Assembly: GCF_021568905.1 (NCBI RefSeq)
Contig: NZ_JAKGSB010000003.1
Location: 124,001 to 188,000 of the forward strand
Origin: Zavarzinia marina
GTDB lineage: Bacteria > Pseudomonadota > Alphaproteobacteria > Zavarziniales > Zavarziniaceae
Reading direction: 5' to 3'
DNA length: 64,000 nt
The translations under genes and the position numbers were made by a program. How positions within the stretch are numbered: position 1 is the stretch's first letter; the number at the start of each line of letters is the position of its first letter. This document shows positions 11,884 through 29,624 of the stretch, one piece after another. A model generated the notes under the pieces. The model did no database searches. It saw only the letters and a program-made list of their open reading frames with translations, and was not told where the DNA came from.

Positions 11884-11909
11884 AATTGTTACCGGGGTGC
11901 GCCTATATG
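11870..11909 (+). promoter_or_regulatory. Promoter with overlapping palindromic operator for the peroxiredoxin-ArsR operon
   Basis: TTTCAA-AATA-TTGAAA (11870-11885) is a perfect inverted repeat. Its right arm doubles as a -35 element, TTGAAA (11880-11885), followed after 18 bases by TATATG (11904-11909) as -10. Transcription would begin near 11916, which supports the GTG start at 11942. A repressor bound here would block RNA polymerase; the ArsR-type protein encoded by the operon is the obvious candidate. Confidence 0.55.
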
Positions 11910-11941
11910 AGACGGTACCCCGAACCGGAGCGCGCCATCCC

Positions 11942-12640
11942 GTGACCGAATCCGCCAACAGCTTCGATCTCTACGACCGTCTGCCCCTGATCGGCGAGGC
12001 GGCGCCGGATTTCCAGGCCCGCTCGACCATGGGCACGGTGTCGCTGTCGGCCTATCGCGGGCGCTGGGTGCTGCTGCTGTCCCATCCCGCCGATTTCACG
12101 CCGGTCTGCACCTCGGAATTCGTCGCGCTGGCCCGTGCCGCCGACCGCTTCCGGGCCCTCGACTGCGAGATCGTGGCGCTGTCTGTCGACAGTCTCTTCG
12201 CCCATATCGCCTGGAGCCTGGCGATCGAGGAGAAATTCGGCGTCACCATCGATTTCCCGATCGTCGAGGATGTCTCGCTGGCGATTTCGCGCGCCTTCGG
12301 CATGGTCCATCCGAGCGCGGGCACGACGGCGACGATCCGCGCCGTCTTCGCCATCGACCCGGACGGGGTGATCCAGGCGATCCAGTATTACCCGATGTCG
12401 ATCGGACGTTCGGTCGACGAACTGCTGCGCCTCGTCGCCGCCCTGAAGGCGGCGGAGGGGGGGACCTGCTCGGTTCCCGCCGACTGGCGGGAAGGCGAGG
12501 CGGTGCTGGCGCCGCCGCCGCTCGCCCTGCCGGAGGCGCGTCGCCGCCTCGGCGCGCCGGGCGCGCGCGACTGGTATTACGGCGATGCGGGCGAGGATGC
12601 CGCACCTCCGCCGTCCAAGCTTCGCAAGGGACGAAAGTGA
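11942..12640 (+). CDS. Peroxiredoxin (1-Cys / Prx6-like)
   Basis: A 232-residue AhpC/TSA-fold thiol peroxidase. The peroxidatic Cys is C56 in HPADFTPVCTSEF, and the long C-terminal arm (PPPLALPEA region) is typical of the Prx6 class. There is one further Cys (GGTCSVP, about 177), not in a canonical resolving position. It reduces peroxides and possibly persulfides using cellular thiols. The GTG at 11942 is preferred because the upstream GTG at 11897 would precede the predicted transcription start. The start of the ArsR gene overlaps its stop. A paralogue lies at 13130-13774. Confidence 0.85.
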   Translation: MTESANSFDLYDRLPLIGEAAPDFQARSTMGTVSLSAYRGRWVLLLSHPADFTPVCTSEFVALARAADRFRALDCEIVALSVDSLFAHIAWSLAIEEKFGVTIDFPIVEDVSLAISRAFGMVHPSAGTTATIRAVFAIDPDGVIQAIQYYPMSIGRSVDELLRLVAALKAAEGGTCSVPADWREGEAVLAPPPLALPEARRRLGAPGARDWYYGDAGEDAAPPPSKLRKGRK

Positions 12641-13083
12641 TGGCCCAGGCCGAATTGATGGACATGGCCGATCATGCGGCCGATTTCCTGAAGGTGCTGG
12701 CCAACGCCAACCGCCTGATGATCGTGTGCCACCTGCTGAGTGGCGAGCGTTCGGTCTCGGATCTCGAAAGCGAGCTCGGCATCCGCCAGCCGACCCTGTC
12801 GCAGCAATTGGGCATCCTGCGCGAGGCGGGCATCGTCGCCGGCCGGCGCGACGCCAAATCGGTGATCTATCATCTGGCGGACGAAAGGGCCCGGCCCATG
12901 ATCGCCGTCATGAACAATCTGTTCTGCGGCGGTCCCCCGGTCGACGACGCCCATTTGGATGCGGGCACCAAGGGTGTTCCGACCGCGGCGGCGCTCAGTC
13001 TGCCGGCGGCGCGGGCGGCGGCGCCCGGCGAGGCGGCCGCCTTCCCGACGGTCCGCCGGCCGTCCCGCCCTTCGGCGGAATGA
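12640..13083 (+). CDS. ArsR-family repressor, SqrR/BigR-like persulfide sensor
   Basis: A 147-residue winged-helix regulator. The HTH spans about 38-72 (RQPTLSQQLGILREAG), the wing about 72-80. Two cysteines, C30 (RLMIVCHLL) and C96 (NNLFCGG), match in place the dithiol pair of SqrR and BigR that forms a tetrasulfide bridge with sulfane sulfur; metal-site signatures such as CVC are absent. The C-terminal 45 residues are low-complexity and not part of the fold. The ATG overlaps the peroxiredoxin stop (TGATG), so translation is coupled. It probably represses the adjoining sulfide genes; the family link is solid and the target set is inferred. Confidence 0.82.
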   Translation: MAQAELMDMADHAADFLKVLANANRLMIVCHLLSGERSVSDLESELGIRQPTLSQQLGILREAGIVAGRRDAKSVIYHLADERARPMIAVMNNLFCGGPPVDDAHLDAGTKGVPTAAALSLPAARAAAPGEAAAFPTVRRPSRPSAE

Positions 13084-13969: not shown

Positions 13970-13999
13970 TTGCCTTGCCGCGCTGCAATAATTTATAAT
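13970..13999 (+). promoter_or_regulatory. Sigma-70 type promoter for the sulfur operon
   Basis: -35 TTGCCT (13970-13975), an 18-base spacer, and consensus -10 TATAAT (13994-13999). The predicted start near 14006 leaves a leader of about 70 bases before the ATG at 14077. Confidence 0.55.
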
Positions 14000-14076
14000 T
14001 CACGAAAAAATATATTGAAAGAGGCCCGTGCGCGGCTATCTTCTTTCTCCAGAACCCTGGAGAAGGAGATGCCGCG

Positions 14077-14868
14077 ATGTCCGTTCGAAGCCTGTCGAGG
14101 GTACTGCTGGCCAAGCAGCTGGTGATCGGCGGTCTGCTGGCCGGGACCCTGGCCCTGCCGGCGGGGGCGGAGGATACGCCGGTCACCGTGCGCGCCCTCA
14201 GCCGCGATGCGAAATTCATCGGCAGTTCCATGGGCGGCATGGCGGTCACCCTGCGCGATGCCGCGACCGGCGCCGTCCTCGCCGAGGGCGTCACGGCCGG
14301 CGGCACGGGCGATACCACCCGCCTGATCAAGACGCCGCGTGCCCGGGGTGATGCGCTGGCGGGCGAAGGCGATGCCGGCTTTTCGGCGGTGATCGATCTC
14401 GCGCGTCCGACCCTGGTCGAGGTGGCCCTGCGCGGCCCCGTCGATCACCCGGCTTCGGCGGTCGAGGTCACGTCGCGCATGTGGCTGATGCCGGGTCTCG
14501 GCATCGCGGAAGGCGACGGCTGGGTGATCGAGGTGCCGGGCTTCGTCGTCGATCTCGACCAGACGCCCGCGACGGCCGCGGTCGGCGACAGCCTGACCCT
14601 CGGCGCCAAGGTGACCATGATGTGCGGCTGTCCGGTCACCCCCGGCGGTCTCTGGAACGCCGATACCTATGCGATCGCCGCCCATGTCACGGTCGACGGC
14701 GAAGCGCGTCCCGACCTGCCCCTGACCGGGGGCGAGGGCAGCCGTTATGCCGTGCCGCTCCGCTTCGATCGCCCCGGCCTCTGGCGCATAGACGTCTATG
14801 CCCATGACCCCGCCAACGGCAATACCGGCGTCGTCAGCCGCGAAATCCGCGTCACACCGCAAAGCTGA
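14077..14868 (+). CDS. Exported protein of unknown function with a CGCP motif
   Basis: A 263-residue protein that I do not recognise. A clear Sec signal peptide (basic N-terminus, hydrophobic 14-27, likely cleavage after AGA at about 31) sends it to the periplasm. The mature part looks beta-rich, with two similar stretches that read like immunoglobulin-like or CopC-like sandwich strands, and only two cysteines, C183 and C185, in MMCGCPV. A Met-Met-Cys-Gly-Cys cluster could bind copper or carry sulfane sulfur. AGAAGGAGAT precedes the ATG. It is the first gene of the operon with the periplasmic DsrE-like protein, persulfide dioxygenase and SQR, so a role in periplasmic sulfur or metal handling is likely but unproven. 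Confidence 0.75.
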   Translation: MSVRSLSRVLLAKQLVIGGLLAGTLALPAGAEDTPVTVRALSRDAKFIGSSMGGMAVTLRDAATGAVLAEGVTAGGTGDTTRLIKTPRARGDALAGEGDAGFSAVIDLARPTLVEVALRGPVDHPASAVEVTSRMWLMPGLGIAEGDGWVIEVPGFVVDLDQTPATAAVGDSLTLGAKVTMMCGCPVTPGGLWNADTYAIAAHVTVDGEARPDLPLTGGEGSRYAVPLRFDRPGLWRIDVYAHDPANGNTGVVSREIRVTPQS

Positions 14869-14887
14869 TCAGTCGGAAGGAACCCTC

Positions 14888-15334
14888 ATGAAATCCCTGC
14901 GCCCCGGTTTCGCCGCCGCCCTCCTCGTCGCCGGCGCCGCCGCTTTCACCCCGCTCGCCGCCGCCGAGCCGGCGACGATCCTGTCGATCGTGACCTCGCC
15001 CGCGCCCGAGACCCAGGCCATGGCCCTGGTGCTGGCCACCGCGTCCAGAAAGGCCGGGGCCGAGGTTCGCATCCTGCTCTGCGACGCGGCCGGCGATATC
15101 GCGCTCCGCGAACCGCCGGCCGCCGCCACCGCGCCCCTCAAGCCCAGGGGCGCCAGCCCGCGCGGCCTGCTGGACGGCCTGATGGCCGCCGGCGTGCCGG
15201 TGGAAGTCTGCGCCCTCTATCTCCCCAACCGCGACCTCGGGCCCGACGCCCTGGCCGCCGGCGTGGGGGTGGCAAGGCCGCCCGCCGTGGCTTCGACGAT
15301 GGTCGATCCCACGGTGAAGGTGATTTCGTATTGA
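14888..15334 (+). CDS. Periplasmic DsrE-family-like protein
   Basis: A 148-residue protein with a signal peptide (hydrophobic 8-25, cleavage likely after AAA at about 26) and then a DsrE/DsrF-like alpha-beta domain: a first strand TILSIVTSP, a helix with ETQAMALVLATASRKAG, strand EVRILLCDAAGD with C65, and VEVCALYLPN with C108. The C65 position fits a sulfur-carrier cysteine of this family. The ATG at 14888 follows GGAAGGAACCCTC and starts 19 bases after the preceding gene. It probably binds or relays sulfane sulfur in the periplasm together with the preceding CGCP protein. Confidence 0.75.
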   Translation: MKSLRPGFAAALLVAGAAAFTPLAAAEPATILSIVTSPAPETQAMALVLATASRKAGAEVRILLCDAAGDIALREPPAAATAPLKPRGASPRGLLDGLMAAGVPVEVCALYLPNRDLGPDALAAGVGVARPPAVASTMVDPTVKVISY

Positions 15335-15403
15335 TTTTAATTTTACGAAATCATAAATAGTGTAATCATAAAACATGGCGCAAGCCGCCCAGGAGTAGAA
15401 ACC
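15335..15403. promoter_or_regulatory. AT-rich internal promoter/operator with direct repeats
   Basis: AATCATAAA occurs twice (15349-15357 and 15364-15372) at a 15-base pitch, and related ATCATAAAA is at 13906-13914. TTGATT (15331-15336) and ATAAAT (15353-15358) could form a weak promoter for the dioxygenase gene. This is a possible second SqrR-type control point. Confidence 0.4.
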
Positions 15404-16267
15404 ATGAAGCCCGTCGTCCATGCCTTCTTCGACGAGCCGACCTACACGGTCAGCTATGTGGTCGAAGACCCCGCCACCAAAGCCGCGGCCATCGTCGATT
15501 CGGTGCTCGACTACGATCCGAACTCGGGCCGCACGTCCCACGAGTCCGCCGACAAGATCATCGCCTTCGTGAAGGAGAAGGGTCTGACGGTCGAATGGCT
15601 GCTGGAAACCCATGTCCACGCCGATCATCTGTCCGCCGCGCCCTATCTGAAGCAGGCGCTGGGCGGCAAGATCGCCATCGGCGCCAACATCAAGGTCGTC
15701 CAGGGCATCTTCGGCAAGGTGTTCAACGCCGAGCCGCAATTCGCCACCGACGGCCGCCAGTTCGACCAGCTCTTCGCCGACGGCGACACCTTCAAGGTCG
15801 GCACGATCGAGGGCCGCGTGATGCACACGCCCGGCCATACGCCCGCCTGCCTGACCTATCTGATCGGCGATGCCGGTTTCGTCGGCGACACGCTGTTCAT
15901 GCCGGACTACGGCACGGCGCGCTGCGACTTCCCCGGCGGTGACGCCACCACCCTGTTCCGTTCGATCCAGAAGATCTTCGCGCTGCCGGACGAGACGCGG
16001 CTCTTCATGTGCCACGACTACAAGGCGCCGGGCCGCGACACCTATGCCTGGGAGACCACGGTGGGCGAGGAGAAGAAGCGGAACATCCACGTCCACGACG
16101 GCGTGAAGGAGGAAGACTTCGTCGCCATGCGCTCCAAGCGTGACGCCACCCTGGCCATGCCCCGGCTCATCCTGCCGTCGGTCCAGGTGAACATGCGGGC
16201 GGGCGAACTGCCCCCGCCGGAAGACAACGGCACCCGCTATCTGAAGATCCCCCTCAACGCGCTCTGA
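15404..16267 (+). CDS. Persulfide dioxygenase (ETHE1-type MBL-fold)
   Basis: A 287-residue metallo-beta-lactamase-fold protein. Metal-site motifs are ETHVHADH (H70, H72, D74, H75), HTPGHTP (H145), GDTLFMPD (D162) and MCHDY (H204), the pattern of mono-iron ETHE1/Blh enzymes that oxidise glutathione persulfide to sulfite. The C-terminal PRLILPSVQVNMRAGELPPPE is typical of the bacterial branch. The rhodanese or DUF442 partner domain often fused in this family is absent; here the DUF442 domain sits on the SQR instead. CAGGAGTAGAAACC precedes the ATG. Confidence 0.9.
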   Translation: MKPVVHAFFDEPTYTVSYVVEDPATKAAAIVDSVLDYDPNSGRTSHESADKIIAFVKEKGLTVEWLLETHVHADHLSAAPYLKQALGGKIAIGANIKVVQGIFGKVFNAEPQFATDGRQFDQLFADGDTFKVGTIEGRVMHTPGHTPACLTYLIGDAGFVGDTLFMPDYGTARCDFPGGDATTLFRSIQKIFALPDETRLFMCHDYKAPGRDTYAWETTVGEEKKRNIHVHDGVKEEDFVAMRSKRDATLAMPRLILPSVQVNMRAGELPPPEDNGTRYLKIPLNAL

Positions 16268-16306: not shown

Positions 16307-16507
16307 ATGGAACGCAACGTCGGAACCGTCGATCGGGTGCTGCGCCTCGCCGCCGCCGTGATCCTGCTGTCGCTGCTCTTCCTCCTCGAGGGCAACGCGC
16401 GGTGGATCGGGCTGGTCGGCCTGGTGCCGCTGTTCACCGGCGGCACCGCCTGGTGCCCGCTCTACACGCTGTTCGGCATCCGGACCTGTCCGGTCGCCAA
16501 GCGCTGA
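16307..16507 (+). CDS. Small DUF2892 membrane protein
   Basis: A 66-residue protein with two membrane segments (about 9-28 and 33-50) and the DUF2892 signature: MERNVGTVDRVLR start, GTAWCPLYTLFGI, and a terminal cysteine in RTCPVAKR. The family accompanies rhodanese and sulfide-oxidation genes (it also forms the membrane part of YgaP). C49 and C61 could take part in sulfur transfer at the membrane. It lies 39 bases after the dioxygenase gene in the same operon. Confidence 0.87.
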   Translation: MERNVGTVDRVLRLAAAVILLSLLFLLEGNARWIGLVGLVPLFTGGTAWCPLYTLFGIRTCPVAKR

Positions 16508-16663: not shown

Positions 16664-18427
16664 ATGGACAGCCTGAAGAAACTGACGCCCTTCCTTTCCG
16701 TCGCCCCCCAGATCACCACCGGCGATGTCGGAAGCCTGTCCGCCCTGGGCTTCCGGGCGATCATCAACAACCGGCCCGACGGCGAGGGGCCGGGGCAGCC
16801 CCCGTCGGCCGAAATCGCCGAAGCGGCGAAGCGCCTCGGCCTCGACTACCGCCATATCCCCGTGGTTTCCGGCCAGGTGACGGACGAGGCGGTGGCGGCC
16901 TTCACCGCCGCCCTCGAAGAGGTGAAGGGCCCGGTTCTCGCCTTCTGCCGCACCGGCACCCGCTCCACCACCCTCTGGGCGCTGTCCGAAGCCCATCACC
17001 TCTCGACCGACGCCATCGTCGAGGCGGCGGCGGGGGCCGGCTACGATCTGGCGAACCTGCGCACCCGCCTCGATGCGACGGCTTCCGCCGGCCAGCCGGG
17101 TGGCGGCGAGGTCCTGCCCTTCACCCGCTCCACCAGTTTCGACGTGCTGATCATCGGCGGCGGTGCCGCCGGCTGCGCCACCGCGGCCAGCATCCGCCGC
17201 CGCCGCCCGTCGCTGTCGATCGCGATCGTCGAGCCCAGCGACAAGCATTACTACCAGCCGGCCTGGACCCTGGTCGGCGGCGGCGCCTTCGACCGGGCCA
17301 AGACCGAACGCTCGATGGAGCGGGCGATCCCCAATGGCGTGCGCTGGATCCGCGCCGCCGCCGCCGGCTTCGAGCCCGACCGCAATCTCGTCGTCCTGGA
17401 GGACGGCACCCGTCTCGCCTATCGCACCCTCGTGGTGGCGCCCGGCCTGCAACTGCGCTGGGACCTGATCGAGGGCCTGTCGGAGACGCTCGGCAAGAAC
17501 GGCGTGACCTCGAACTATCTGTTCGATCTGGCGCCCTATACGTGGGAACTGGTGCAGGGCCTGAAGAAGGGCAAGGCGATCTTCACCCAGCCGCCCATGC
17601 CGATCAAATGCGCCGGCGCGCCGCAGAAGGCGATGTATCTGTCCTGCGACCACTGGCTGAAGAGCGGCGCCCTGAAGGATATCGACGTCGAGCTCGACAA
17701 TGCCGGTGCCGTGCTCTTCGGCGTCGGCACCTTCGTGCCGCCGCTGATGAAATACGTCGAAAAATACGGCGCCCATCTCGCCTTCAACTCGAACCTGAAG
17801 GCGATCGACGGTGCCGCCAAGACCGCCTTCTTCGACGTCAAGGCGGCCGACGGCACGGTCGCCCGCGTCGAGAAGAAATTCGACATGATCCACGTCGTGC
17901 CGCCGCAGACCGCGCCCGAATTCATCCGCAATTCGCCCTTCGCCGATGCCGCCGGCTGGGTCGACGTCGATCAGGAGACGCTGCGCCACAAGCGTTACGG
18001 CAATGTCTTCTCGCTGGGCGACGCCTCCTCGGCGCCCAATGCCAAGACCGCGGCGGCGGTGCGCAAGCAGGCGCCGGTGGTGGCCGAGAATGTGCTCGCC
18101 GTCCTCGAGGGCAAGAGCCCGCACGCGGTCTACGACGGCTACGGCTCGTGCCCGCTGACGGTCGAGAAGGGCAAGGTGGTGCTGGCCGAATTCGGCTATG
18201 GCGGCAAGCTGCTGCCGACCTTCCCGATGGATCCCGCGGTGCCCCGCCGCACCGCCTGGTTCCTGAAGGCCAGGATGCTGCCGACGCTCTATTGGGACGT
18301 CATGCTGAAGGGCCACGAATGGCTGGCGAAGCCGACCATCCTGCCCCACGAGCCGCAGGAGCGTGAGGAGAACCCGTCGCTCGACGATTGCGCCAAGTCG
18401 AAGCGCGTGGGCGGGGGCGCGTCGTGA
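16664..18427 (+). CDS. DUF442 phosphatase-like domain fused to type II sulfide:quinone oxidoreductase
   Basis: A 587-residue two-domain protein. Residues 1-125 are a DUF442 (TIGR01244) domain with the cysteine-phosphatase loop C95-RTGTR-S. Residues 158-560 are an FAD disulfide reductase: dinucleotide motif LIIGGGAAGC (about 162-171), PIKCAGAPQKAMYL typical of type II (mitochondrial-like) SQR, and GDASSAPNAKTAAAVRKQAP for the FAD/quinone face. The SQR part oxidises sulfide to sulfane sulfur and reduces quinone at the membrane; the DUF442 cysteine may accept that sulfur. The ATG follows GCGAGGAACGCCCCG. The next gene overlaps its stop. Confidence 0.9.
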   Translation: MDSLKKLTPFLSVAPQITTGDVGSLSALGFRAIINNRPDGEGPGQPPSAEIAEAAKRLGLDYRHIPVVSGQVTDEAVAAFTAALEEVKGPVLAFCRTGTRSTTLWALSEAHHLSTDAIVEAAAGAGYDLANLRTRLDATASAGQPGGGEVLPFTRSTSFDVLIIGGGAAGCATAASIRRRRPSLSIAIVEPSDKHYYQPAWTLVGGGAFDRAKTERSMERAIPNGVRWIRAAAAGFEPDRNLVVLEDGTRLAYRTLVVAPGLQLRWDLIEGLSETLGKNGVTSNYLFDLAPYTWELVQGLKKGKAIFTQPPMPIKCAGAPQKAMYLSCDHWLKSGALKDIDVELDNAGAVLFGVGTFVPPLMKYVEKYGAHLAFNSNLKAIDGAAKTAFFDVKAADGTVARVEKKFDMIHVVPPQTAPEFIRNSPFADAAGWVDVDQETLRHKRYGNVFSLGDASSAPNAKTAAAVRKQAPVVAENVLAVLEGKSPHAVYDGYGSCPLTVEKGKVVLAEFGYGGKLLPTFPMDPAVPRRTAWFLKARMLPTLYWDVMLKGHEWLAKPTILPHEPQEREENPSLDDCAKSKRVGGGAS

Positions 18428-19081: not shown

Positions 19082-20839
19082 ATGCCGTCCCGCCTGATCC
19101 GCGCGCTGCCCTTCCTCGAATGGGCGCGCGAATACCGACGCGACACCCTGGTCAGCGATCTGGTCGCGGCCGTGGTGGTCACCATCATGCTGGTGCCGCA
19201 GAGTCTCGCCTATGCCATGCTCGCCGGCCTGCCGCCCCATATCGGTCTCTATGCCTCGATCCTGCCGCTGGTCGCCTACGCCCTGTTCGGCACCAGCCGG
19301 GCGCTCGCGGTCGGGCCCGTCGCCGTCGTCTCGCTGATGACCGCGACCGCGGTCGGCGGCATCGCCGCCACCGGGACCGAGGATTATCTGGCGGCGGCCA
19401 TCGTGCTCGCCATGGAATCGGGTGTGATCCTGATCGCGCTCGGCGTGCTGCGCCTCGGCTTCCTGGCCAATTTCCTGTCCCATTCGGTGATCTCGGGCTT
19501 CATCACCGCGTCCGGCATCCTGATCGCGACCAGCCAGTTGAAGCATCTCTTCGGCGTGAGGACCAAGGGCGACACCATGCCCGATCTGGTCGGCCAGCTC
19601 GTCTCCTCGATCCCCGACATCAACTGGATCACCCTGGTGATCGGCGTCCTCGCCACCGGCTTCCTGTTCTGGGTGCGCAAGCAGTTGAAGCCGCTGCTGC
19701 GCCGGATCGGCCTCGGCCCGCTCGCCGCCGACATCGTCGCCAAGACGGGGCCGGTGGTCGCCGTCATCGTCTCGATCGTCGCCGTCGCCGGCCTCTCCCT
19801 CGACGCCGAGGGGGTGAAGGTGGTCGGCGCCATTCCGGGCGGCCTGCCGCCCATGGGCCTGCCCCTGCTGAACCCCGATCTCTGGATCGATCTCTTCGTG
19901 CCGGCGCTGCTGATCTCGATCATCGGCTTCGTCGAATCGATCTCGGTCGCCCAGACCTTCGCGGCCAAAAGGCGCCAGCGCGTCGACGCCAATTCGGAAC
20001 TGGTCGGTCTCGGCGCCGCCAATGTCGCCTCGTCCCTGACCGGCGGCTTTCCGGTGACCGGCGGCTTCTCGCGCTCGGTGGTCAATTTCGATGCCGGCGC
20101 CCAGACCCCCATGGCCGGCGTCTTCACCGCCGTCGGCATCCTGGTGACCACCCTGTTCCTGTCCCATCTCTTCGCCAAGCTGCCCCAGGCGGTGCTGGCC
20201 GCGACCATCATCGTCGCCGTCCTGTCGCTGGTCGATCTCGGCGCCGTGAAGCGGACCTGGGACTATTCCAAGGCCGATGCCGTCGCCATGGCGGTGACCA
20301 TCGTCGTCGTGCTCTTCGTCGGGGTCGAGATCGGTGTCGTCGCCGGCGTCGCCGTCTCCCTGGCGCTGTTCCTGTTCCGCACCAGCCGGCCCCATATGGC
20401 GATCGTCGGGCGCGTGCCGGGGACCGAGCATTTCCGCAACGTCGAGCGTCACAAGGTAGTCGAAAGCGAAGCGGTGCTGACGGTCCGCGTCGACGAAAGC
20501 CTCTATTTCGCCAATGCCCGCTTCCTCGAGGACCGGATCTACGACCTCGTCGCCAGCCGCGCCGAGGTGAAGCATGTCGTCCTGATGTGCTCGGCCGTGA
20601 ACATGATCGACGCCAGCGCCCTCGAAAGCCTGGAGGCGATCGCCGAGCGCCTGAAGGCGGCGGGCGTGAAATTCCATCTGTCGGAGGTGAAGGGCCCGGT
20701 CATGGACCGTCTGAAGCGGACCCATTTCCTCGACCATCTGACCGGCGAGGTGTTCCTGTCCCAGCAGGCGGCGATGCGGGCGCTGGATCCCGGCACCTGC
20801 GGCCCCGGACCGGCGGCCGAGGCTCGCCTCGTCTCCTGA
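19082..20839 (+). CDS. SulP/SLC26-family anion (sulfate) permease with STAS domain
   Basis: A 585-residue transporter with about 12-14 membrane helices (about 20-420) and a cytoplasmic STAS domain (about 450-560; VVLMCSAVNMIDASALESL). The SulP signature PPHIGLYASILPLVAYALFG is near residue 50. It starts 10 bases after the methyltransferase gene, with GAGGAATTCTTC upstream, so it is the last gene of the sulfur operon. Sulfate or sulfite movement out of or into the cell after sulfide oxidation is the simplest reading; SulP proteins also carry bicarbonate and organic acids. Confidence 0.88.
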   Translation: MPSRLIRALPFLEWAREYRRDTLVSDLVAAVVVTIMLVPQSLAYAMLAGLPPHIGLYASILPLVAYALFGTSRALAVGPVAVVSLMTATAVGGIAATGTEDYLAAAIVLAMESGVILIALGVLRLGFLANFLSHSVISGFITASGILIATSQLKHLFGVRTKGDTMPDLVGQLVSSIPDINWITLVIGVLATGFLFWVRKQLKPLLRRIGLGPLAADIVAKTGPVVAVIVSIVAVAGLSLDAEGVKVVGAIPGGLPPMGLPLLNPDLWIDLFVPALLISIIGFVESISVAQTFAAKRRQRVDANSELVGLGAANVASSLTGGFPVTGGFSRSVVNFDAGAQTPMAGVFTAVGILVTTLFLSHLFAKLPQAVLAATIIVAVLSLVDLGAVKRTWDYSKADAVAMAVTIVVVLFVGVEIGVVAGVAVSLALFLFRTSRPHMAIVGRVPGTEHFRNVERHKVVESEAVLTVRVDESLYFANARFLEDRIYDLVASRAEVKHVVLMCSAVNMIDASALESLEAIAERLKAAGVKFHLSEVKGPVMDRLKRTHFLDHLTGEVFLSQQAAMRALDPGTCGPGPAAEARLVS

Positions 20840-20900: not shown

Positions 20901-21557
20901 TCAGTCGTTCCGGTGGGGCGCGCCGCGATCGAACCAGCGCAGGGTGAGGATGATGACGCCGGCGCCGAAGACGACGGCCATGGGCTCCAGGATCCCGGCG
21001 ATCAGGGGCGCCAGATAGATCAGGGTGCGCAGGCTGTCGCTGTAGTAGCGCCCGGCCAGCGCGACATAGCGCTTCGCCTGGCGGCGGTCGTCGTCGGTCG
21101 CATGGCCGCCGAAGCCGGCCAGATAGCCGAGATGGTTGTAGAAGCGTGCCGACTGGGTGGCGAACAGGAAGGATGTGAACAGGGTCGCGACCAGGAGGCC
21201 GCCGACCGCGAGCTGGATCGGATGGACCGCGGTCTCGCCCGGGCCGACCGCGACCTTGAGCGCCAGATGGACGGCGACCGGGCCGATCAGGCTGATGGTG
21301 CCCATCAGGGCGATCACCGTCGTCGAGGCGACGATGGTCGCGGCCATCAGGGAATTGCGGATGGTCTGGACCGCGATGATCTCCTGCCCGGGCCGGGCGA
21401 AGATCGAGTCCAGCCAGCGCTCGCGCATGGTGATATGGCGCTGGCGGGCGGTCTGGCGGTGGCGCTGGAAGGTTTCGAAGCCGGCGATCAGCAGGGTGCC
21501 GGCGCCGAGCGACGCCCAGCGCAGGCCTTCCACAACGTCGGGCGGAATGGCCGCCAT
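20901..21557 (-). CDS. DUF599 integral membrane protein
   Basis: A 218-residue protein with about four membrane helices and the DUF599 motifs FETFQRHRQTARQRHITMRERW and RNSLMAATI near the middle. No enzyme activity is known for the family. The ATG at 21557 shares a base with the stop codon of the YeeE/YedE gene upstream, so translation is coupled. It is the third gene of the run with the two thiosulfate-transporter-like halves. Confidence 0.82.
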   Translation of the reverse strand: MAAIPPDVVEGLRWASLGAGTLLIAGFETFQRHRQTARQRHITMRERWLDSIFARPGQEIIAVQTIRNSLMAATIVASTTVIALMGTISLIGPVAVHLALKVAVGPGETAVHPIQLAVGGLLVATLFTSFLFATQSARFYNHLGYLAGFGGHATDDDRRQAKRYVALAGRYYSDSLRTLIYLAPLIAGILEPMAVVFGAGVIILTLRWFDRGAPHRND

Positions 21558-21973
21558 CAACCCCTGGCCTTGATCACGCGCACCACGACCATGCCGGCGG
21601 CCATGGAAGCGACAAGGGCGACCACGGGCAGGGCGCCCGAGACCAGGGACGACAGCGCGGGCCCGGGGCAATAGCCGGCGAGGCCCCAGCCGATGCCGAA
21701 GAGGGCGGCGCCGGCGACGAGGTTCAAGTCGATGTCCCTGCGGGTCGGGATCTGGAACGCGCCGGCCAGCACGGGGCCGCTGCGGCTCAGCACCAGCTTG
21801 TAGCCGATGAAGGTGACGATCACGCCGGCGCCCATGACGAAGGCGAGGGAAGGATCCCAGTCGCCGGCCAGATCGAGAAAGCCGAGAACCTTGGCGGGAT
21901 CGGTCATGCCGGCGACGGCGAGACCGAGGCCGAAGATGAGGCCGATGACGAGGGCGGTGAGAATGCGGGCCAT
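21557..21973 (-). CDS. YeeE/YedE-family half protein (DUF6691, PmpB-like)
   Basis: A 138-residue membrane protein with four hydrophobic segments and the sulfur-transport motif GYCPGPA (Cys at about 102). With its neighbour it makes up the two halves of a YeeE/TsuA-type carrier, which passes thiosulfate or other reduced sulfur ions between membrane cysteines. The start at 21973 lies 15 bases after the stop of the partner half. The pairing and position beside the sulfide operon fit import or export of sulfane-sulfur species. Confidence 0.88.
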
Positions 21974-21988: not shown

Positions 21989-22411
21989 TCAGAACAGGTG
22001 GCGGACGACGAAGACGGTGGCGACACCGGTCGCCATGAAGGTGGCGACGGCGACCAGGCTGCGGGGCGAGAGCCGCGAAAGGCCGCAGATGCCGTGGCCG
22101 GACGTGCAGCCCGAGCCGAGCGCCGTGCCGATGCCGACCAGAAAGCCGCCGACGATCATCATGGGCAGGTCGACGGTCGGGGCGCCGATGCCGGTGTCGC
22201 CGGTCAGAAGCCCGAGCAGCAAGGGCCCGCCAAGGAGGCCGACGACGAAGGCGAGGCGCAGCGCGGCCTCGCCGCCCGTGGCGGGGGCCGGCGGCAGCAG
22301 GCCGCCGAAAATGCCGCTGATGCCGGCGATACGGCCCAGCATCGCCATCATGAGGACGGCGGAAAATGCGATCAGCGCACCGCCCAGGGTGGGCAACAGA
22401 AACTGGCTCAT
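21989..22411 (-). CDS. YeeE/YedE-family half protein (PmpA-like)
   Basis: A 140-residue membrane protein with four hydrophobic segments and the hallmark GSGCTSGHGICGLSR (about 99-113), whose cysteines line the sulfur path in YeeE/TsuA. First gene of the minus-strand run with the DUF6691 half and DUF599. The promoter region contains a 12-base palindrome over the likely -10. BigR- and SqrR-type repressors often control such genes. Confidence 0.9.
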   Translation of the reverse strand: MSQFLLPTLGGALIAFSAVLMMAMLGRIAGISGIFGGLLPPAPATGGEAALRLAFVVGLLGGPLLLGLLTGDTGIGAPTVDLPMMIVGGFLVGIGTALGSGCTSGHGICGLSRLSPRSLVAVATFMATGVATVFVVRHLF

Positions 22412-22458
22412 GTCGGGTTCTCTGGCTGGTGGAATCGAGGTCCGGCTTCCGGAATTTC

Positions 22459-22470
22459 ATTATATATAAT
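22459..22470 (-). promoter_or_regulatory. Palindromic -10 region of the YeeE/YedE operon
   Basis: ATTATATATAAT is a perfect 12-base palindrome that contains TATAAT on the minus strand (complement of 22459-22464), 48 bases upstream of the start at 22411. It may be a promoter and operator together. Confidence 0.4.
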
Positions 22471-22666
22471 CGTAAAGTTTAAAAAATTCCAGCGCGGAAC
22501 GCACCCGCGTCCGAAACCGTCGCCCGATGTTCGCGGTCATCCCATATTGCGGTACGAGCCCTTGAGAACATTCGGTTTTCAGCCGATTCCGCGCCTGCGA
22601 CGCTTTGATCCGCGACGATGTGACATGTGCCGTTCTGTCCCATTCAGCCTGGATGGGGAGAGGCAT

Positions 22667-23410: not shown

Positions 23411-25141
23411 ATGAAACCGTACTCGCAACGCCGATCGCCTTCTTCTCCCCCGGGGGAAGCTGATTTCCGCCGGGAAACCGCGACGGCCGAAGGGCGGGGT
23501 GCGGTCGATGGCGGATCCCTTCTGTCCATGCTCGCCGCCTTCGTCTGGCTGCCCCAGGCGGGCTTCATCGCCCTTGCCGTGCAACGGCTGGCGGATGGCG
23601 GCGGCGTCGATGCCGTGCTGTGGCCGGCGGTCGCGGTCGGTCTCCTCGGCGTGCTGCGTGCCGCGCTCGATGCCCTCGGCGCCCGGCTTTCCTACCGCAA
23701 GGCCCGGCATGTGCTGAGCGCCGCGCGGGCCCGGGCGGTCGATGTTCTCGCCGCCGGCTCGCCGCTCGACACGCGGCGCCATCCCGCCGGTCTCGCCGCC
23801 AGCGTCATCGCCGAACAGGCGGAAGCGGTGCTGCCCTATCTGTCGCGCTACAAGCCGGTGCGGATGCGCGTGATGGTGCTGCCCTTCGTCATCGCCGGCG
23901 CGGTCTTCTTCTTTTCCTGGACGGCGGCCCTGATCCTCCTGGTCGCGGCGCCGCTGATCCCCCTGTTCATGGCCCTGGTCGGCTGGCGCGCCAAGGCGGC
24001 GAGCGAGGCCCAGCTGGCGGAGATGGGCGACATGAACGCCTTCCTGCTGGACCGCCTGCGCGGCCTTGCCACCATTCGCGGCCTCGGCGCGGTCGAGACG
24101 ACGGCGAATCGGGTCCACGGCGCCGCCGTCAGCCTGAAGGAGCGCACCATGGCGGTGCTGCGCATCGCCTTCCTGTCGTCCGCCGTCCTCGAACTCTTCT
24201 CCGCCCTCGGCGTCGCCATGGTCGCGGTCTATGTCGGCTTCCATCTGCTCGGCCAGATCGGTTTCGGCGCCTGGGGCGGCACCCTCGGCCTCGGCGAGGC
24301 GCTGTTCGTGCTCCTCCTGGCGCCGGCCTTCTTCGAGCCGCTGCGCGATCTCTCCGCCGTCTGGCACGACCGTGCCGCCGGTGTCGCCGGCCTTGCCGCG
24401 CTGGACGGCCTGATGGCGCCGGGGCTCGAGATGCCGGGCGCGCTTTCGGCCGGAAGCCGGGTGCCTGCCCGCGCCGGTGCGCTGTCGGTGGACCTGCGCG
24501 GCCTCTCCTTTGGTCACGAGGGCGCGCCCGCCCCGGTCTTCGATCATTTCGACCTGCATGTCCGCCCGGGGGAGAGAATCGCCGTGCTCGGCCCCAGCGG
24601 CGCCGGCAAATCGACCCTGCTGTCGCTGATCGGCGGGCTGGCCCCGGCTTCGGGCGGGCGCATCGCCATCGGCGACCGTCTGATGACCGCCGAAACGGCG
24701 GCGGATCTGCGCCAGGGCATGGCCTGGATCGGCCAGCGGCCGCATTTCTTCGCCGGCACGCTGCGCGCCAATATCGCCCTCGGCCGGCCCGAGGTGGATC
24801 TGGCCACGGTCGAGACGGCGGTGGCCGAGGCGGCGCTCCAGCATGTCGCCGGGCCGGGTGCCGCGCGCGATCTCGGCGAAGGCGGCCTCGGCCTTTCGGG
24901 CGGGGAGGCGCTGCGCCTCGCGCTCGCCCGGGCCGCCGCCACCCCCGGCCTCGGTCTCGTGCTGGCGGACGAGCCGACGGCGCATCTCGACCGCGAGACG
25001 GCGGCAGAGGTCACGGCCGGCCTGCTGCGCCTGACCGAGGGCGTCACCCTGATCGTCGCGACCCATGACCCGGCGCTGGCCGCCGCCATGGACCGCACCA
25101 TCCGTATCGGCGGGAGGTCGACATGCCAAGCCGTCGCCTGA
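23411..25141 (+). CDS. cydD: CydD subunit of the thiol/haem ABC exporter for cytochrome bd assembly
   Basis: A 576-residue ABC exporter half: six membrane helices (about 35-330) and a C-terminal ATPase with Walker A GPSGAGKST (about 396), signature LSGGE (about 495) and Walker B LVLADEPTAHLD (about 517). CydDC exports cysteine/glutathione (and binds haem) to allow cytochrome bd maturation. No clear Shine-Dalgarno precedes the ATG at 23411; the first 30 residues are atypically polar, so a later start is possible. Its end overlaps cydC by 19 bases. Confidence 0.88.
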   Translation: MKPYSQRRSPSSPPGEADFRRETATAEGRGAVDGGSLLSMLAAFVWLPQAGFIALAVQRLADGGGVDAVLWPAVAVGLLGVLRAALDALGARLSYRKARHVLSAARARAVDVLAAGSPLDTRRHPAGLAASVIAEQAEAVLPYLSRYKPVRMRVMVLPFVIAGAVFFFSWTAALILLVAAPLIPLFMALVGWRAKAASEAQLAEMGDMNAFLLDRLRGLATIRGLGAVETTANRVHGAAVSLKERTMAVLRIAFLSSAVLELFSALGVAMVAVYVGFHLLGQIGFGAWGGTLGLGEALFVLLLAPAFFEPLRDLSAVWHDRAAGVAGLAALDGLMAPGLEMPGALSAGSRVPARAGALSVDLRGLSFGHEGAPAPVFDHFDLHVRPGERIAVLGPSGAGKSTLLSLIGGLAPASGGRIAIGDRLMTAETAADLRQGMAWIGQRPHFFAGTLRANIALGRPEVDLATVETAVAEAALQHVAGPGAARDLGEGGLGLSGGEALRLALARAAATPGLGLVLADEPTAHLDRETAAEVTAGLLRLTEGVTLIVATHDPALAAAMDRTIRIGGRSTCQAVA

Positions 25142-26811
25142 TCCACACCCTGGCGGATCTGCTGGCCCTGGCCGACCGGCGGCAATTGCTGCTGGGTGCC
25201 GTGCTGTCGGTCGTCACCGTGCTTGCCGGCATGGCGCTGCTCGGCCTGTCGGGCTGGTTCATCACCGCGACCGCGCTGGCCGGGCTGATCCCGGCGACGG
25301 CGCTCGCCTTCGACGTCTTCGCGCCCGCCGCCGCCATCCGCCTGCTGGCGATCGGGCGCACCGGATCGCGTTATGGCGAGCGGCTGGTGACCCATGACGC
25401 CACCCTGTCGCTGCTGGCCCATCTGCGCGCGCGCCTGTTCCGGGGTTTTGCCCGGCCGGCGGCGGCGCGCGACCTGCTGGCCCGCCCGGCGCGCCTGCTG
25501 TTCCGCCTGACCAACGACATCGATGCCCTCGACGGGCTCTATCTCCGCCTGATGGTGCCCTTCTCGGCCGCCTTCGGCGCGACGCTGGCCGCCGGTACCG
25601 CCCTCGGCCTGCTGGCGCCCTGGCTCGGCCTCGGGCTGGCGCTGTTCCTCGGCGGCATCGGCATCCTGGTGCCGGTCGCGACCGCGCTCGCCGGGCGCCG
25701 GCCGGCGCGGCGCCGCGCCCATGGGCTGGAGGCGCTGCGCGCCCGCACCATCGATCTCGTGGACGGCCAGACCGAACTGGCCATGGCCGGCCGCCTCGCC
25801 GCCCAGCGCGATGCGGTCCGCCGGGCCGATGCCTATCTGGCCGATGCCGACGATCGCCTGAACCGGATCGAGACCGGCGCCGGCCTCGCCTTCGGCATCG
25901 CCGGCAGCCTCGCCCTCGCCCTGGTGCTGGCGGGGGCCGGCCTTCTGGTTGAAGCGGGGCGCATCGACACGCCGCTGGCCGCCTTCGCCCTGCTGATCGC
26001 CGTCGCGGTCATGGAACCCTTCGGCGCGCTGCGCCGGGGCGCGGCCGAGATCGGACGCACCCTGCTGGCCCTCGATCGTCTCGGTCCCCGGATCCGGGAC
26101 GGTGCCGAGATGCCGGTGCCGGCGCGGCCCGACGGCTCGACCGCCGTCCTCCTGGACAATGTCGATTTCGCCCATGAGGGCGTGGCGCGACCGGTTTTCA
26201 CCGCCCTCGATCTGCGGATCGAGGCGGGCGAGACCGTCGCCCTGATCGGGCCGAGCGGGGCCGGCAAATCCAGCCTTCTCGCCCTGATCGCGGGCGAGGC
26301 CACGCCCCGGTCCGGGCGCTGCGCGGTCCGGCCGACGGCGCTGCTGACCCAGCGCAGCGAATTGTTCCGCGACACATTGGCCGAGAACCTGCGCCTCGCG
26401 GCGCCCGACGCGGACGAGGCGCGCCTCTGGGCCGCGCTGACGGCGGCCGGGCTCGCGGGCGATGTCGGCGAGATGGCCGACGGTCTCGAAACGCGGCTGG
26501 GCGACGGCGGGCTCGGCCTTTCGGGAGGGCAGGGGCGTCGCCTCGCGCTCGCCCGCATGTTTCTCCGAAACGCTCCGGTCTGGCTCCTGGACGAGCCGAC
26601 CGAGGGCCTGGATCGGGAAACCGCCGTCGACGTGCTCGCTCGGGTCCGGGCGGCGGCGGCGGGACACACGCTGCTTCTCGCCACCCATCTGCGGCGCGAG
26701 GCGGCGATCGCCGACCGTCTGCTGATGGTCGGCGGCGGCGGAATCAGCCGGGAGGCCCGTCGGGGCGAACCGGCTTTCGAAGAGATGCTCGCCGGCCTTC
26801 GGGCCGGTTGA
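25123..26811 (+). CDS. cydC: CydC subunit of the thiol/haem ABC exporter
   Basis: A 562-residue partner of CydD. The N-terminus has the CydC-typical LLGLSGWFITATALAG (about 40-55), followed by membrane helices and an ATPase with Walker A GPSGAGKSS (about 380), signature LSGGQGRRLALARM and Walker B WLLDEPTEGLD. It starts inside cydD (19-base overlap), so the two are translated together. Needed in the membrane for assembly of cytochrome bd encoded immediately downstream. Confidence 0.9.
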   Translation: MPSRRLIHTLADLLALADRRQLLLGAVLSVVTVLAGMALLGLSGWFITATALAGLIPATALAFDVFAPAAAIRLLAIGRTGSRYGERLVTHDATLSLLAHLRARLFRGFARPAAARDLLARPARLLFRLTNDIDALDGLYLRLMVPFSAAFGATLAAGTALGLLAPWLGLGLALFLGGIGILVPVATALAGRRPARRRAHGLEALRARTIDLVDGQTELAMAGRLAAQRDAVRRADAYLADADDRLNRIETGAGLAFGIAGSLALALVLAGAGLLVEAGRIDTPLAAFALLIAVAVMEPFGALRRGAAEIGRTLLALDRLGPRIRDGAEMPVPARPDGSTAVLLDNVDFAHEGVARPVFTALDLRIEAGETVALIGPSGAGKSSLLALIAGEATPRSGRCAVRPTALLTQRSELFRDTLAENLRLAAPDADEARLWAALTAAGLAGDVGEMADGLETRLGDGGLGLSGGQGRRLALARMFLRNAPVWLLDEPTEGLDRETAVDVLARVRAAAAGHTLLLATHLRREAAIADRLLMVGGGGISREARRGEPAFEEMLAGLRAG

Positions 26812-26886
26812 GAGCGAGGTTGCGTAACGCCCGGCGACGGGCACGGCCAACTGGAGGGCGCCGGAGGGATGCCGGCGTGAAATGAC

Positions 26887-28464
26887 ATGGAACTGGACAT
26901 CGTAGGCCTTTCGCGACTGCAGTTCGCGATGACGGCCCTCTATCACTTCCTCTTCGTGCCCCTGACGCTCGGGCTGTCGATCCTGCTCGCCATCATGGAG
27001 ACGGTCTATGTCATGACCGGCCGTCCGATCTGGCGTCAGATGACCAAGTTCTGGGGCACGCTGTTCGGCATCAACTTCGTGCTCGGCGTCGCGACCGGCA
27101 TCGTGATGGAATTCCAGTTCGGCATGAACTGGTCCTACTACAGCCATTACGTCGGCGACATCTTCGGGGCGCCGCTGGCGATCGAGGGCCTGATGGCCTT
27201 CTTCCTCGAGGCGACCTTCGTCGGCCTGTTCTTCTTCGGCTGGGACCGGATGTCCAAGGTCGGTCACCTGACCGCGACCTGGGCGGTCGCGCTCGGCTCG
27301 AACCTGTCGGCGCTGTGGATCCTGATCGCCAACGGCTGGATGCAGAACCCGGTGGGTTCCGTGTTCAACCCGGTGACCATGCGCATGGAGGTGAACAACT
27401 TCTTCGAGGTGCTGTTCAATTCCGTCGCCCAGGCGAAATTCGTGCACACGGTCTCGGCCGGTTACGTCACGGCCTCGATCTTCGTCCTCGGCGTCTCGGC
27501 CTGGTACGCGCTGAAGGGCCGCCATATCGATCTCGCCAAGCGTTCGATGACGGTCGCCGCCTCCTTCGGCCTCGCCGCCTCGCTCTCGGTCGTCGTGCTG
27601 GGTGACGAAAGCGGTTACCTCGCGACCGAGCATCAGAAGATGAAGCTGGCCGCCATGGAAGGCATGTGGGAGACGGAAGAGGCCCCCGCCGCCTTCAACC
27701 TGATCGGCTTCCCCGACCAGGAAGCGCGCGAGACCCACTACACGGTGAAGATCCCGGCCGTCATGGGCCTGATCACCACCCGCAGCCTGACCGAGGAACT
27801 GCCGGGCATCAAGGAACTGGTGGGCAAGGCGGAGGGCCGCATCCAGCGCGGCATCGTCGCCTATGACGCGCTCCAGACGATCCGCGCCGCCGGCAGCACG
27901 GATGCCGTCGATCCGGCGGTGAAGGCCGCCTTCGAGGACAATGGCGCCGATCTCGGCTATGCGCTGCTGCTCAAGCGTTACGTCGACGATCCGCGCGCGG
28001 CGACCCCGGCGCAGATCGAACAGGCGGCCTGGGACACGGTGCCGGAAGTCTTCCCGCTGTTCTGGTCCTTCCGCATCATGGTCGGGCTCGGCTTCTTCTT
28101 CATCCTGCTGACCGGTGTCTTCTTCGTGCTGTCGACCCGGCGCACGCTGCTGAAGCGGCGCTGGCTGCTGCGCCTTGCCGTGTTCTGCATCCCGCTGCCC
28201 TGGCTCGCGGCGGAACTCGGCTGGTTCGTCGCCGAATTCGGCCGCCAGCCCTGGATCATCGAAGGGGTGCTGCCGACGGCGGCGGCGGTCTCCAGCCTGG
28301 GCGCCGGCACCTTGCTGCTCACGCTGGTCGGCTTCGTCGCCATCTACAGCGTGCTCATCGTCATCGAAATGGGGCTGATGCTGAAGGCCATCCGCAAGGG
28401 GCCTGAAGAGGACGTCGACCCGCAGGCCGAGCTGGTCTCGCCTGCCATCGTGCCCGCGGAGTAA
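26887..28464 (+). CDS. cydA: Cytochrome bd ubiquinol oxidase subunit I
   Basis: A 525-residue membrane subunit that oxidises quinol and carries haems b558, b595 and d. The axial ligands are visible: H20 (ALYHFLF), H187 (AKFVHTVSAGY) and M398 (SFRIMVG); E100 and E108 (IEGLMAFFLEATF) belong to the proton path. The Q-loop region (about 250-390) is long, of the E. coli bd-I type, with GWFVAEFGRQPW after it. The gene follows cydC by 75 bases. Cytochrome bd has high oxygen affinity and resists sulfide, fitting the FixK box and the adjoining sulfide operon. Confidence 0.97.
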   Translation: MELDIVGLSRLQFAMTALYHFLFVPLTLGLSILLAIMETVYVMTGRPIWRQMTKFWGTLFGINFVLGVATGIVMEFQFGMNWSYYSHYVGDIFGAPLAIEGLMAFFLEATFVGLFFFGWDRMSKVGHLTATWAVALGSNLSALWILIANGWMQNPVGSVFNPVTMRMEVNNFFEVLFNSVAQAKFVHTVSAGYVTASIFVLGVSAWYALKGRHIDLAKRSMTVAASFGLAASLSVVVLGDESGYLATEHQKMKLAAMEGMWETEEAPAAFNLIGFPDQEARETHYTVKIPAVMGLITTRSLTEELPGIKELVGKAEGRIQRGIVAYDALQTIRAAGSTDAVDPAVKAAFEDNGADLGYALLLKRYVDDPRAATPAQIEQAAWDTVPEVFPLFWSFRIMVGLGFFFILLTGVFFVLSTRRTLLKRRWLLRLAVFCIPLPWLAAELGWFVAEFGRQPWIIEGVLPTAAAVSSLGAGTLLLTLVGFVAIYSVLIVIEMGLMLKAIRKGPEEDVDPQAELVSPAIVPAE

Positions 28465-28469
28465 CGACC

Positions 28470-29624
28470 ATGATCCTTCACACGCTTCTCGACTACGAAA
28501 CCCTGCGCCTGATCTGGTGGGTGCTGCTCGGCGTCCTCCTCATCGGCTTCGCGGCGACCGACGGCTTCGATCTCGGCGTCGCCACCCTGCTGCCCTTCGT
28601 CGGCCAGACCGACGTCGAGCGCCGGGTCGTCATCAACACCGTCGGCCCGGTCTGGGAAGGCAATCAGGTGTGGCTGATCCTGGGCGGCGGCGCCATCTTC
28701 GCCGCCTGGCCGCCGCTCTACGCCGTGTCGTTCTCGGGCTTCTACCTGGCGATGTTCGCGACCCTGTTCGCGCTCATCCTGCGGCCCGTGGGCTTCAAGT
28801 ACCGCTCGAAGCGCGAAAGCGCGACCTGGCGCAGCGGCTGGGACTGGGCGCTGTTCGTCGGCGGTTTCGTGCCTTCGCTGATCTTCGGCGTCGCCGTCGG
28901 CAACGTCCTCCAGGGCGTGCCCTTCCGGCTCGACGACGATCTGCGGATCTTCTACGACGGCACCTTCTTCGGCCTGCTGAATCCCTATGCCCTGCTGTGC
29001 GGCCTGCTGTCGGTCGCCATGCTGGTCATGCACGGGGCGGCCTGGCTGGTGATGAAGACCTCGGGCCGGGTGGCGGATCGCACCCGCACCTTCGGCACGG
29101 CGGCGGCCTTCGCCACCTTCGTGCTCTACGCCCTCGGCGGCATCGCCCTCTACTTCCTGGTGGACGGCTATGCGGTCACCTCGGGCGGCGACATGGCGGG
29201 TCCGTCCAACCCGCTGCTGAAGACGGCGGCGGTGCTGCCGGGCGCCTGGTTCGCCAATTACGGCGCCTATCCGCTGCTGCTGATCGCGCCCGCGCTCGGC
29301 CTGCTCGGCGCCTTCCTCGCCTTCGTCGGTTTCGGGGCGAAGCGGCCGGGCGTGACCTTCACCGGGTCGTTCCTGTCGATCTTCGGCATCATCTCCAGCG
29401 TCGGCGTCTCGATGTTTCCCTTCATCCTGCCGTCGTCGGTGGACCCCCGTGCCAGCCTGATGGTCTTCGACGCCTCGTCGAGCCATCTGACCCTGTTCAT
29501 CATGCTGGTGGTGACCCTGATCTTCCTGCCGCTCGTGCTGGCCTATACCGCCTGGGTCTACAAGATCCTGTGGGGCAAGGTCGAGCCGTCGGACATCACC
29601 CGCAAGGGCGGTCACGCCTACTGA
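28470..29624 (+). CDS. cydB: Cytochrome bd ubiquinol oxidase subunit II
   Basis: A 384-residue membrane protein of the CydB family, with eight to nine hydrophobic helices. The N-terminus LIWWVLLGVLLIGFAATDGFDLGV and the segment VGPVWEGNQVWLI-like (TVGPVWEGNQVW) are diagnostic. It packs against CydA and stabilises the haem d/b595 site. It starts 5 bases after the cydA stop and is followed by the tiny cydX. Confidence 0.97.
   Translation: MILHTLLDYETLRLIWWVLLGVLLIGFAATDGFDLGVATLLPFVGQTDVERRVVINTVGPVWEGNQVWLILGGGAIFAAWPPLYAVSFSGFYLAMFATLFALILRPVGFKYRSKRESATWRSGWDWALFVGGFVPSLIFGVAVGNVLQGVPFRLDDDLRIFYDGTFFGLLNPYALLCGLLSVAMLVMHGAAWLVMKTSGRVADRTRTFGTAAAFATFVLYALGGIALYFLVDGYAVTSGGDMAGPSNPLLKTAAVLPGAWFANYGAYPLLLIAPALGLLGAFLAFVGFGAKRPGVTFTGSFLSIFGIISSVGVSMFPFILPSSVDPRASLMVFDASSSHLTLFIMLVVTLIFLPLVLAYTAWVYKILWGKVEPSDITRKGGHAY

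Follow-up and report, generated by a model that had tools for sequence, protein, structure and literature searches.

An exported protein with an invariant CGC motif in a sulfide/persulfide gene cluster of Zavarzinia marina

P1 is an exported protein of a family without a name. It is encoded within a sulfide/persulfide gene cluster of Zavarzinia marina, and its invariant CGC motif probably acts on reactive sulfur beyond the inner membrane. The cluster is located in a 64,000 nt stretch of DNA that was analyzed as a whole (the window; positions 124,001–188,000 of contig NZ_JAKGSB010000003.1). On the sequence comparisons presented here, the place of P1 and of the adjacent gene P2, which encodes an exported DsrE-like protein, in this cluster is not an accident. 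Far less is understood about the bacterial handling of polysulfide and persulfide outside the inner membrane than about the cytoplasmic SqrR/PDO/SQR route. The P1 family, with its fixed dithiol, a promoter positioned as that of the persulfide dioxygenase (PDO), and its occurrence on conjugative plasmids, would make the question of extracytoplasmic sulfur directly testable.

Features of the cluster are listed in Table 1. The gene order is Prx1, repressor, Prx2 (opposite strand), P1, P2, PDO, a 66-residue protein, a DUF442-SQR fusion, a methyltransferase-like gene and SulP; the YeeE/YedE-type genes and then CydDCAB lie beyond SulP. The preliminary description of this DNA proposed two adjacent genes for exported proteins, and the reading frames of P1 and P2 are indeed both open, with signal peptides judged by eye. 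The window PDO matches the dioxygenase half of Blh with 420 bits, where the cut-off for the whole protein is 625. The DUF442-SQR fusion scores over the cut-off of TIGR01244 and reaches 191 bits with NF049943, under the cut-off of 525. Prx2 is approximately 73% identical to the peroxiredoxin (Prx) found beside P2 relatives in two other loci (L047 and L048).

Table 1. Features of the P1-P2 cluster, in positions of the window
Feature	Position	Strand	Basis or remark
Prx1, peroxiredoxin encoded before the repressor, also present in congeners	11897–12640	+	PF00578
ArsR-family repressor, SqrR/BigR type	12637–13083	+	ArsR winged helix, PF01022; NCBIfam BigR equivalog 103 bits, cut-off 155
Prx2, 1-Cys-type peroxiredoxin, divergent from P1	13130–13813	-	PF00578 and PF10417
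O1 and P1-P2 promoter	13986–14042	+	gap-free alignment, operator to -10, with the pre-PDO region of three congeners
P1, exported, family without a name, 263 residues	14077–14868	+	no family match; model pLDDT 93.4
P1 mature part	from about residue 32 (14170)	+	signal peptide judged by eye
Codons of C183-G184-C185, invariant CGC of P1	14623–14631	+	38 of 38 rows
P2, exported, DsrE-like, 148 residues	14888–15334	+	PF02635 E 0.0022, under cut-off
P2 C65 and C108 codons	15080–15082, 15209–15211	+	both Cys in 9 of 9
O2, inverted repeat before PDO	15321–15353	+	equaled by none of 200 shuffles; three congeners have repeats at this site
Persulfide dioxygenase (PDO), MBL fold	15404–16267	+	PF00753
66-residue protein	16307–16507	+	by eye like the small PDO-adjacent protein of congeners and plasmid DUF2892 proteins
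DUF442 sulfurtransferase domain fused to SQR-like flavoprotein	16664–18427	+	PF04273, PF07992
SulP sulfate-permease-type transporter	19082–20839	+	PF00916, PF01740
Two small YeeE/YedE-type membrane proteins	21557–21973, 21989–22411	-	by eye
CydD, CydC, CydA, CydB	23411–29624	+	by eye and similarity to the pISP1 island

A comparison with five congeners locates P1 and P2 relative to the PDO promoter. PDO is 86–91% identical in four of the five. The three congeners with the sqrR-PDO stretch on one contig (L138, L139 and L141) have the same SqrR-PDO-SQR locus without Prx2, P1 and P2, and their repressor and PDO genes are approximately 280–320 nt apart, versus 2,320 nt in the window. Within this gap is the repeat TTTCAATATAT-N13-ATATATTGAAA, near perfect in L138 and L139, and its right arm runs into a -35 sequence TTGAAA followed by a -10 sequence TATCTT or TATGTT. 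The same right arm, -35 and -10 are found directly before P1 in the window in a gap-free alignment (operator O1 at 13986–14020, TTGAAA at 14015–14020, TATCTT at 14037–14042), so that P1 and P2 stand behind the promoter found ahead of PDO in these three genomes. In the window, O1 has a degraded left arm, and 91 of 200 shuffled sequences match its best inverted repeat; the same test gives 24 of 200 in L141, one in L138 and none in L139.

O2 is a perfect 9-bp inverted repeat with a 15-nt spacer and has the P2 stop codon inside. Two of 200 shuffles are as good in each congener, where the repeats are at the O2 place, in L139 with different letters. The SqrR-like repressor is predicted to bind O1 and O2 and to control P1-P2. 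A scan for O1-like sites gave none in the 11 further loci with P1 or P2 that were examined. Upstream of the YeeE/YedE pair, a weak O1-like site (22455–22484) was rejected, since its inverted repeat is matched by 199 of 200 shuffles. A unique insertion in the window genome as the only history was also rejected, as a deletion in the congeners is possible too. Congeners L138 and L141 keep a stretch able to encode the last P2 codons (VISY-stop), which is indecisive on insertion versus deletion because it is also the left arm of O2. A stand-alone DUF442 gene (approximately 138 residues in L138 and L139) follows the small-protein gene and precedes the DUF442-SQR fusion in L138, L139 and L141, and is missing from the window and from L140.

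P1 has exactly two cysteines, C183 and C185, both within MMCGCPV, as first described, and its N-terminus resembles by eye a Sec signal peptide ending at about AGA/ED. The protein was initially not recognized, and it remains without a Pfam or NCBIfam match at E ≤ 10 or a PHROGs match at E ≤ 0.001. A PDB profile search with the P1 alignment gave no matches at E ≤ 1, and the best E value of a single-sequence search of the PDB is 0.32. The 12 relatives in alignment A1/A2 have 24–50% identity to P1 and all keep the CGC. C183, G184, C185 and W193 are present in 38 of 38 aligned rows, which include a near-identical pair (L054/L073), fragments (L007/L008) and a frameshifted copy (L084). The CGC represents the sole two cysteines of many mature proteins of the family, and many relatives likewise have a signal-peptide-like N-terminus by eye.

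The distribution of the P1 family is patchy. One genome collection yielded 12 loci with a relative. By taxon, relatives are present in 6 of 385 genomes searched in the class, in 6 of 398 in the phylum (two being the same as in the class search), in 2 of 101 in one family and in 15 of 149 in a second family (four of these 15 matches are partial or split). Among 72,556 plasmid records, 6 have a relative, and all of these are from sphingomonads. Named hosts include Parvibaculum, Parasphingopyxis, Saprospiraceae and Methylobacter. P1 was not found in the five congeners, and among 60 related genomes it is present in one, its own. Five Saprospiraceae/Methylobacter rows (L009–L013) keep the CGC but display no visible signal peptide, which counts against the idea that the entire family acts solely in the periplasm; no sulfur neighbor was seen by eye for these five Bacteroidota/Methylobacter relatives. 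Within one family, copies are split between frames (L084) or partial (G962, G883 and G964). The gene may decay often, and some partial copies may be contig ends.

Structure modeling of mature P1 with AlphaFold2 (13 sequences) gives a mean pLDDT of 93.4 and a pTM of 0.85, with nearly all strands. The CGC, at mature residues 152–154 in the model, directly follows the strand at 141–150 and is in the C-terminal domain. This domain (approximately 124–232) matches Ig-like/macroglobulin-like domains with VIA Z of about 9–11 over about 100 residues; Z peaks at 11.2, and the aligned part, about 100 residues long, is mainly 124–232 of the model. The fold searches used the whole P1 model, and the Foldseek matches are generic chains of two Ig or FnIII domains, for the most part with TM-scores of 0.2–0.4. 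SoxY and SoxZ are absent among the 50 matches listed, many of which are generic Ig-like. A structure check on mature P1 had been suggested at the outset; it found only generic Ig-like, macroglobulin-like and FnIII-like matches, and no well-known family. As modeled, the C-terminal domain of P1 is Ig-like and carries the CGC, and the matches give a fold class, not a function.

Sulfur genes recur near P1 in other genomes. Ten marker proteins were taken from the window and one P2 locus, none from P1 relatives. At least one marker is found in 7 of 37 P1 loci versus 1 of 40 stretches drawn at random from genomes with P1 (Fisher 0.021), or in 6 of 35 P1 loci (Fisher 0.036) with two repeats removed (L074, which repeats L005, and L052, which repeats the L051 island). 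Two plasmid loci were left out of the test, L055 (L051 island) and L073 (same as L054). The controls are 40 of 41 random regions drawn, from 14 contigs; each is 16 kb, ten P1 loci are shorter than 10 kb, and the controls are longer on average. A marker is within approximately 1 kb of P1 in five lineages versus 0.16–0.31 expected, this distance having been chosen post hoc, after the loci were seen. None of the ten markers is present in 30 of the 37 loci.

The five lineages, L080, L008, L021, L029 and the plasmid island L051/L052, differ in their sulfur genes. A PDO that is 68% identical to that of the window is directly upstream of P1 and touching it in L080, with TauE and YeiH nearby. P1 is beside PDO, ArsR and TauE in L008; ArsR overlaps P1 in the chromosomal locus L021 and is one gene away from P1 in the plasmid island L051/L052. 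P1 of L029 follows a cytochrome c and a flavocytochrome c sulfide dehydrogenase (FCSD) flavoprotein, which has 24% identity to the window SQR and is confirmed by PF21706 and PF09242. Four loci were judged by eye and without a control: L024 (cysteine biosynthesis), L053 (TauE and an annotated DsbB), L054 (YeiH) and L076 (CydC). With the by-eye loci added, sulfur or thiol genes are near P1 in 9 of 35 loci; at the remaining loci none were seen by eye, and neighbors are, e.g., recJ and thrC. The proposal of a sulfur role, with co-occurrence of sulfur genes, is thus supported in part: the promoter position, the recurrent PDO, FCSD, SQR-like, rhodanese and ArsR neighbors and the excess over controls argue for it, but loci with a sulfur neighbor are a minority.

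Plasmid pISP1 of Sphingomonas sp. MM-1 (NC_020562) has a P1 relative in approximately 25 kb between recombinase and integrase genes (84–110 kb, L127). Also encoded there are TauE, PDO, two peroxiredoxins, TrxC, two ArsR, CydDC, CydABX, TlpA, an RND pump, a rhodanese, an SQR-like flavoprotein and DUF3365. Identities to the window proteins are 67% for PDO, 76% for one Prx (to Prx2) and 66% for CydA; the SQR-like protein has no match to the window SQR at E 0.001 and does not reach the NCBIfam cut-off for SQR. Two other sphingomonad plasmids show the same order from TolC to P1 in the stretch read, and these three plasmids are all typed conjugative. Their SQR-like/DUF2892/rhodanese/RND/CMD/ArsR/P1 module is also present at the chromosomal locus L021, with 46–75% identity. 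The stretch of approximately 25 kb between recombinase genes, also found in L052 and L055, looks like a mobile sulfide/persulfide resistance island.

P2 has an N-terminus that resembles a Sec signal peptide ending at about AAA/EP, and the aligned relatives show the same by eye. It was first described as DsrE-like with C65 and C108, and this assignment is sustained by a weak match to PF02635 (DsrE; 18.6 bits, curated cut-off 22.7). Both cysteines are kept in all nine family members, four of which match PF02635 at E ≤ 0.1. C108 aligns with a Cys of YchN (1jx7) in a weak match, E 0.026. The single-sequence model of P2 is of low confidence (pLDDT 38). PPR matches in the P2 profile search were rejected as repeat artefacts, with 4–6 bits per repeat.

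P2 is found in 9 of 372 genomes of the class, its own included. In six of seven contexts read, the neighborhood of the P2 relative includes genes for PDO, SQR, rhodanese, Prx or cytochrome bd; L049, a weak P2 match, was dropped from this count, and L072, the P2 relative of G504, is in the alignment only. A P2 relative occurs with PDO, DUF442 and SulP in L043 and with SQR in L046; Prx is near P2 relatives in L044, L047 and L048, and cytochrome bd genes are in L044 and L046. L042 has none of these five kinds of gene. An exported rhodanese-like protein adjoins the exported DsrE-like protein in three contexts (L043, L045 and L047), a possible periplasmic sulfurtransferase pair. The order Prx-rhodanese-P2 of L047 resembles Prx2-P1-P2 of the window, with P1 in place of the rhodanese, a likeness that is suggestive only. 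P1 and P2 do not form a conserved pair: of 27 genomes or records that carry P1 (10 known to be at least 90% complete, 4 plasmids), two also carry P2, the window genome and G504, and in G504 the two genes are approximately 316 kb apart.

On the best reading, which is tentative and a little short of an even chance, the dithiol of P1 acts in the periplasm during sulfide stress, where it would bind sulfane sulfur or pass it on. P1 would be an exported member of a sulfide/persulfide-stress regulon. Its CGC, on the Ig-like domain, would accept periplasmic sulfane sulfur, as persulfide or polysulfide, and then hand the sulfur on or release sulfide, by which exported thiols would be spared oxidation. 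P2 would probably serve as the partner at this locus or as a second, parallel carrier. Next, the sulfur would enter the SQR/PDO route, perhaps via the YeeE/YedE pair encoded nearby. Sulfur binding by P1, the direction of transfer and any P1-P2 contact are what we infer from gene context and motif.

A sulfane-sulfur site at the CGC is the most likely mechanism, although somewhat less than probable. It is favored because the promoter position is shared with PDO of the congeners and because PDO, SQR-like, FCSD, rhodanese and ArsR neighbors occur in separate lineages, and it is supported by the invariance of the CGC and W193 and by the sulfur-type neighbors of the P2 relatives. It is weakened by the 30 P1 loci without markers, by the absence of P2 from 25 of the 27 P1-bearing genomes or records, by the five Bacteroidota/Methylobacter relatives without signal peptide or sulfur neighbor, and by the degraded left arm of O1 in the window, alone no better than chance. 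A broader proposal is that P1 is the first member of a new class of sulfane-sulfur carriers in the periplasm, Ig-like and with a CGC holding a persulfide or trisulfide. Such a carrier would work like SoxYZ or an exported rhodanese but be unrelated in sequence; it would supplement SQR/PDO detoxification and have spread with conjugative islands of sulfide resistance. This proposal is rather unlikely.

The fixed CXC dithiol would also suit a periplasmic thiol-disulfide enzyme or redox buffer, where the CGC cycles between dithiol and disulfide and carries no sulfur. Short CGC peptides can mimic disulfide isomerase. P1 relatives adjoin CydC in L076 and the annotated DsbB in L053, and TlpA and CydDC are near the P1 relative on pISP1. 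A P1 of this type, which might keep exported thiols in order during sulfide stress, is improbable: the model is beta-rich with an Ig-like domain and no thioredoxin fold, the L053 DsbB is weak in NCBIfam (19.8 bits, cut-off 138), and the PDO, SQR and rhodanese neighbors are explained less directly than by sulfane sulfur at the CGC. The CXC motif is also a common soft-metal site, and P1 might bind copper, mercury or arsenic, protecting the periplasm or loading an enzyme. RND pumps and ArsR regulators at some P1 loci, a metal P-type ATPase and CDF approximately 4–7 kb from P1 in L053, and an arsC-like gene directly downstream of P1 in L029 are consistent with metal binding. The residues beside the CGC are less so, since position 181 (counted by hand) is Met in only 24 of 38 rows, position 182 is Met in 35 and Leu in three, and no His is conserved in 90% of the rows. 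P1 has no Pfam match and hence none to copper-chaperone families, and the tested ArsR proteins rank the BigR model first or next after a generic model, below cut-off. Soft-metal binding thus has a small probability, and copper, which the preliminary description had suggested, was rejected as the first-choice reading, M181 and His not being conserved. The least probable alternative, in which the sulfur link is secondary and P1 is a general envelope protein whose widely travelling gene landed in sulfur clusters several times, would account for the patchy distribution, the varied neighbors such as recJ and thrC, the many loci without markers and the lack of P1 in congeners, but not as readily for marker adjacency in five lineages (post hoc), the same P1 module on plasmids and one chromosome, or the fixed CGC.

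When compared with known proteins, P2 is like the DsrE/TusD/YchN family (PF02635) in its weak profile match and in the alignment of C108 with a YchN Cys, and unlike it in being exported, in its second fixed cysteine, C65, and in a score under the curated cut-off. SoxYZ is a periplasmic sulfur carrier with an Ig-like fold and a sulfur-binding Cys, which in SoxY is on a C-terminal GGCGG arm. P1, if the sulfane-sulfur reading is right, would share the periplasmic Ig-like fold with sulfur-binding Cys; it differs in that the CGC is internal and the C-terminus has no Cys arm, and it has no SoxY or SoxZ Pfam match at E ≤ 10. Two other identities for P1 are disfavored, a thioredoxin-fold Dsb protein (the model is beta-rich with an Ig-like domain and the motif is CXC, not CXXC) and a periplasmic copper chaperone (no Pfam match, M181 Met in 24 of 38 rows, no conserved His). 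A literature search, with most subscription journals outside its scope, found no paper on an exported DsrE or on the CGC motif of P1. Other divergent DsrE-like proteins occur in DsrE-like complexes, according to the part of the source available (PMC13047784).

The pISP1 island is like the window in that its P1 relative co-occurs with PDO, two Prx, two ArsR, CydDC and CydABX. It is unlike the window in the absence of P2 and in its different SQR-like protein, and has as extras the RND pump, rhodanese, TrxC, TlpA and DUF3365. The bigR operon of Xylella and Agrobacterium comprises BigR, Blh and a TauE transporter, as described in the available part of PMC5823870. On that description, the operon and the window share a type of ArsR repressor that responds to sulfane sulfur or sulfide, DUF442 and PDO activities, and sulfite/sulfate-type transporters. 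The window differs in that PDO and DUF442 are separate proteins and DUF442 is fused to SQR, and the operon as described in that part of the source has no counterpart of P1, P2 or Prx2. The SqrR/BigR-PDO-SQR route is already known, and P1 is of a family nameless in the libraries searched, within a known kind of system.
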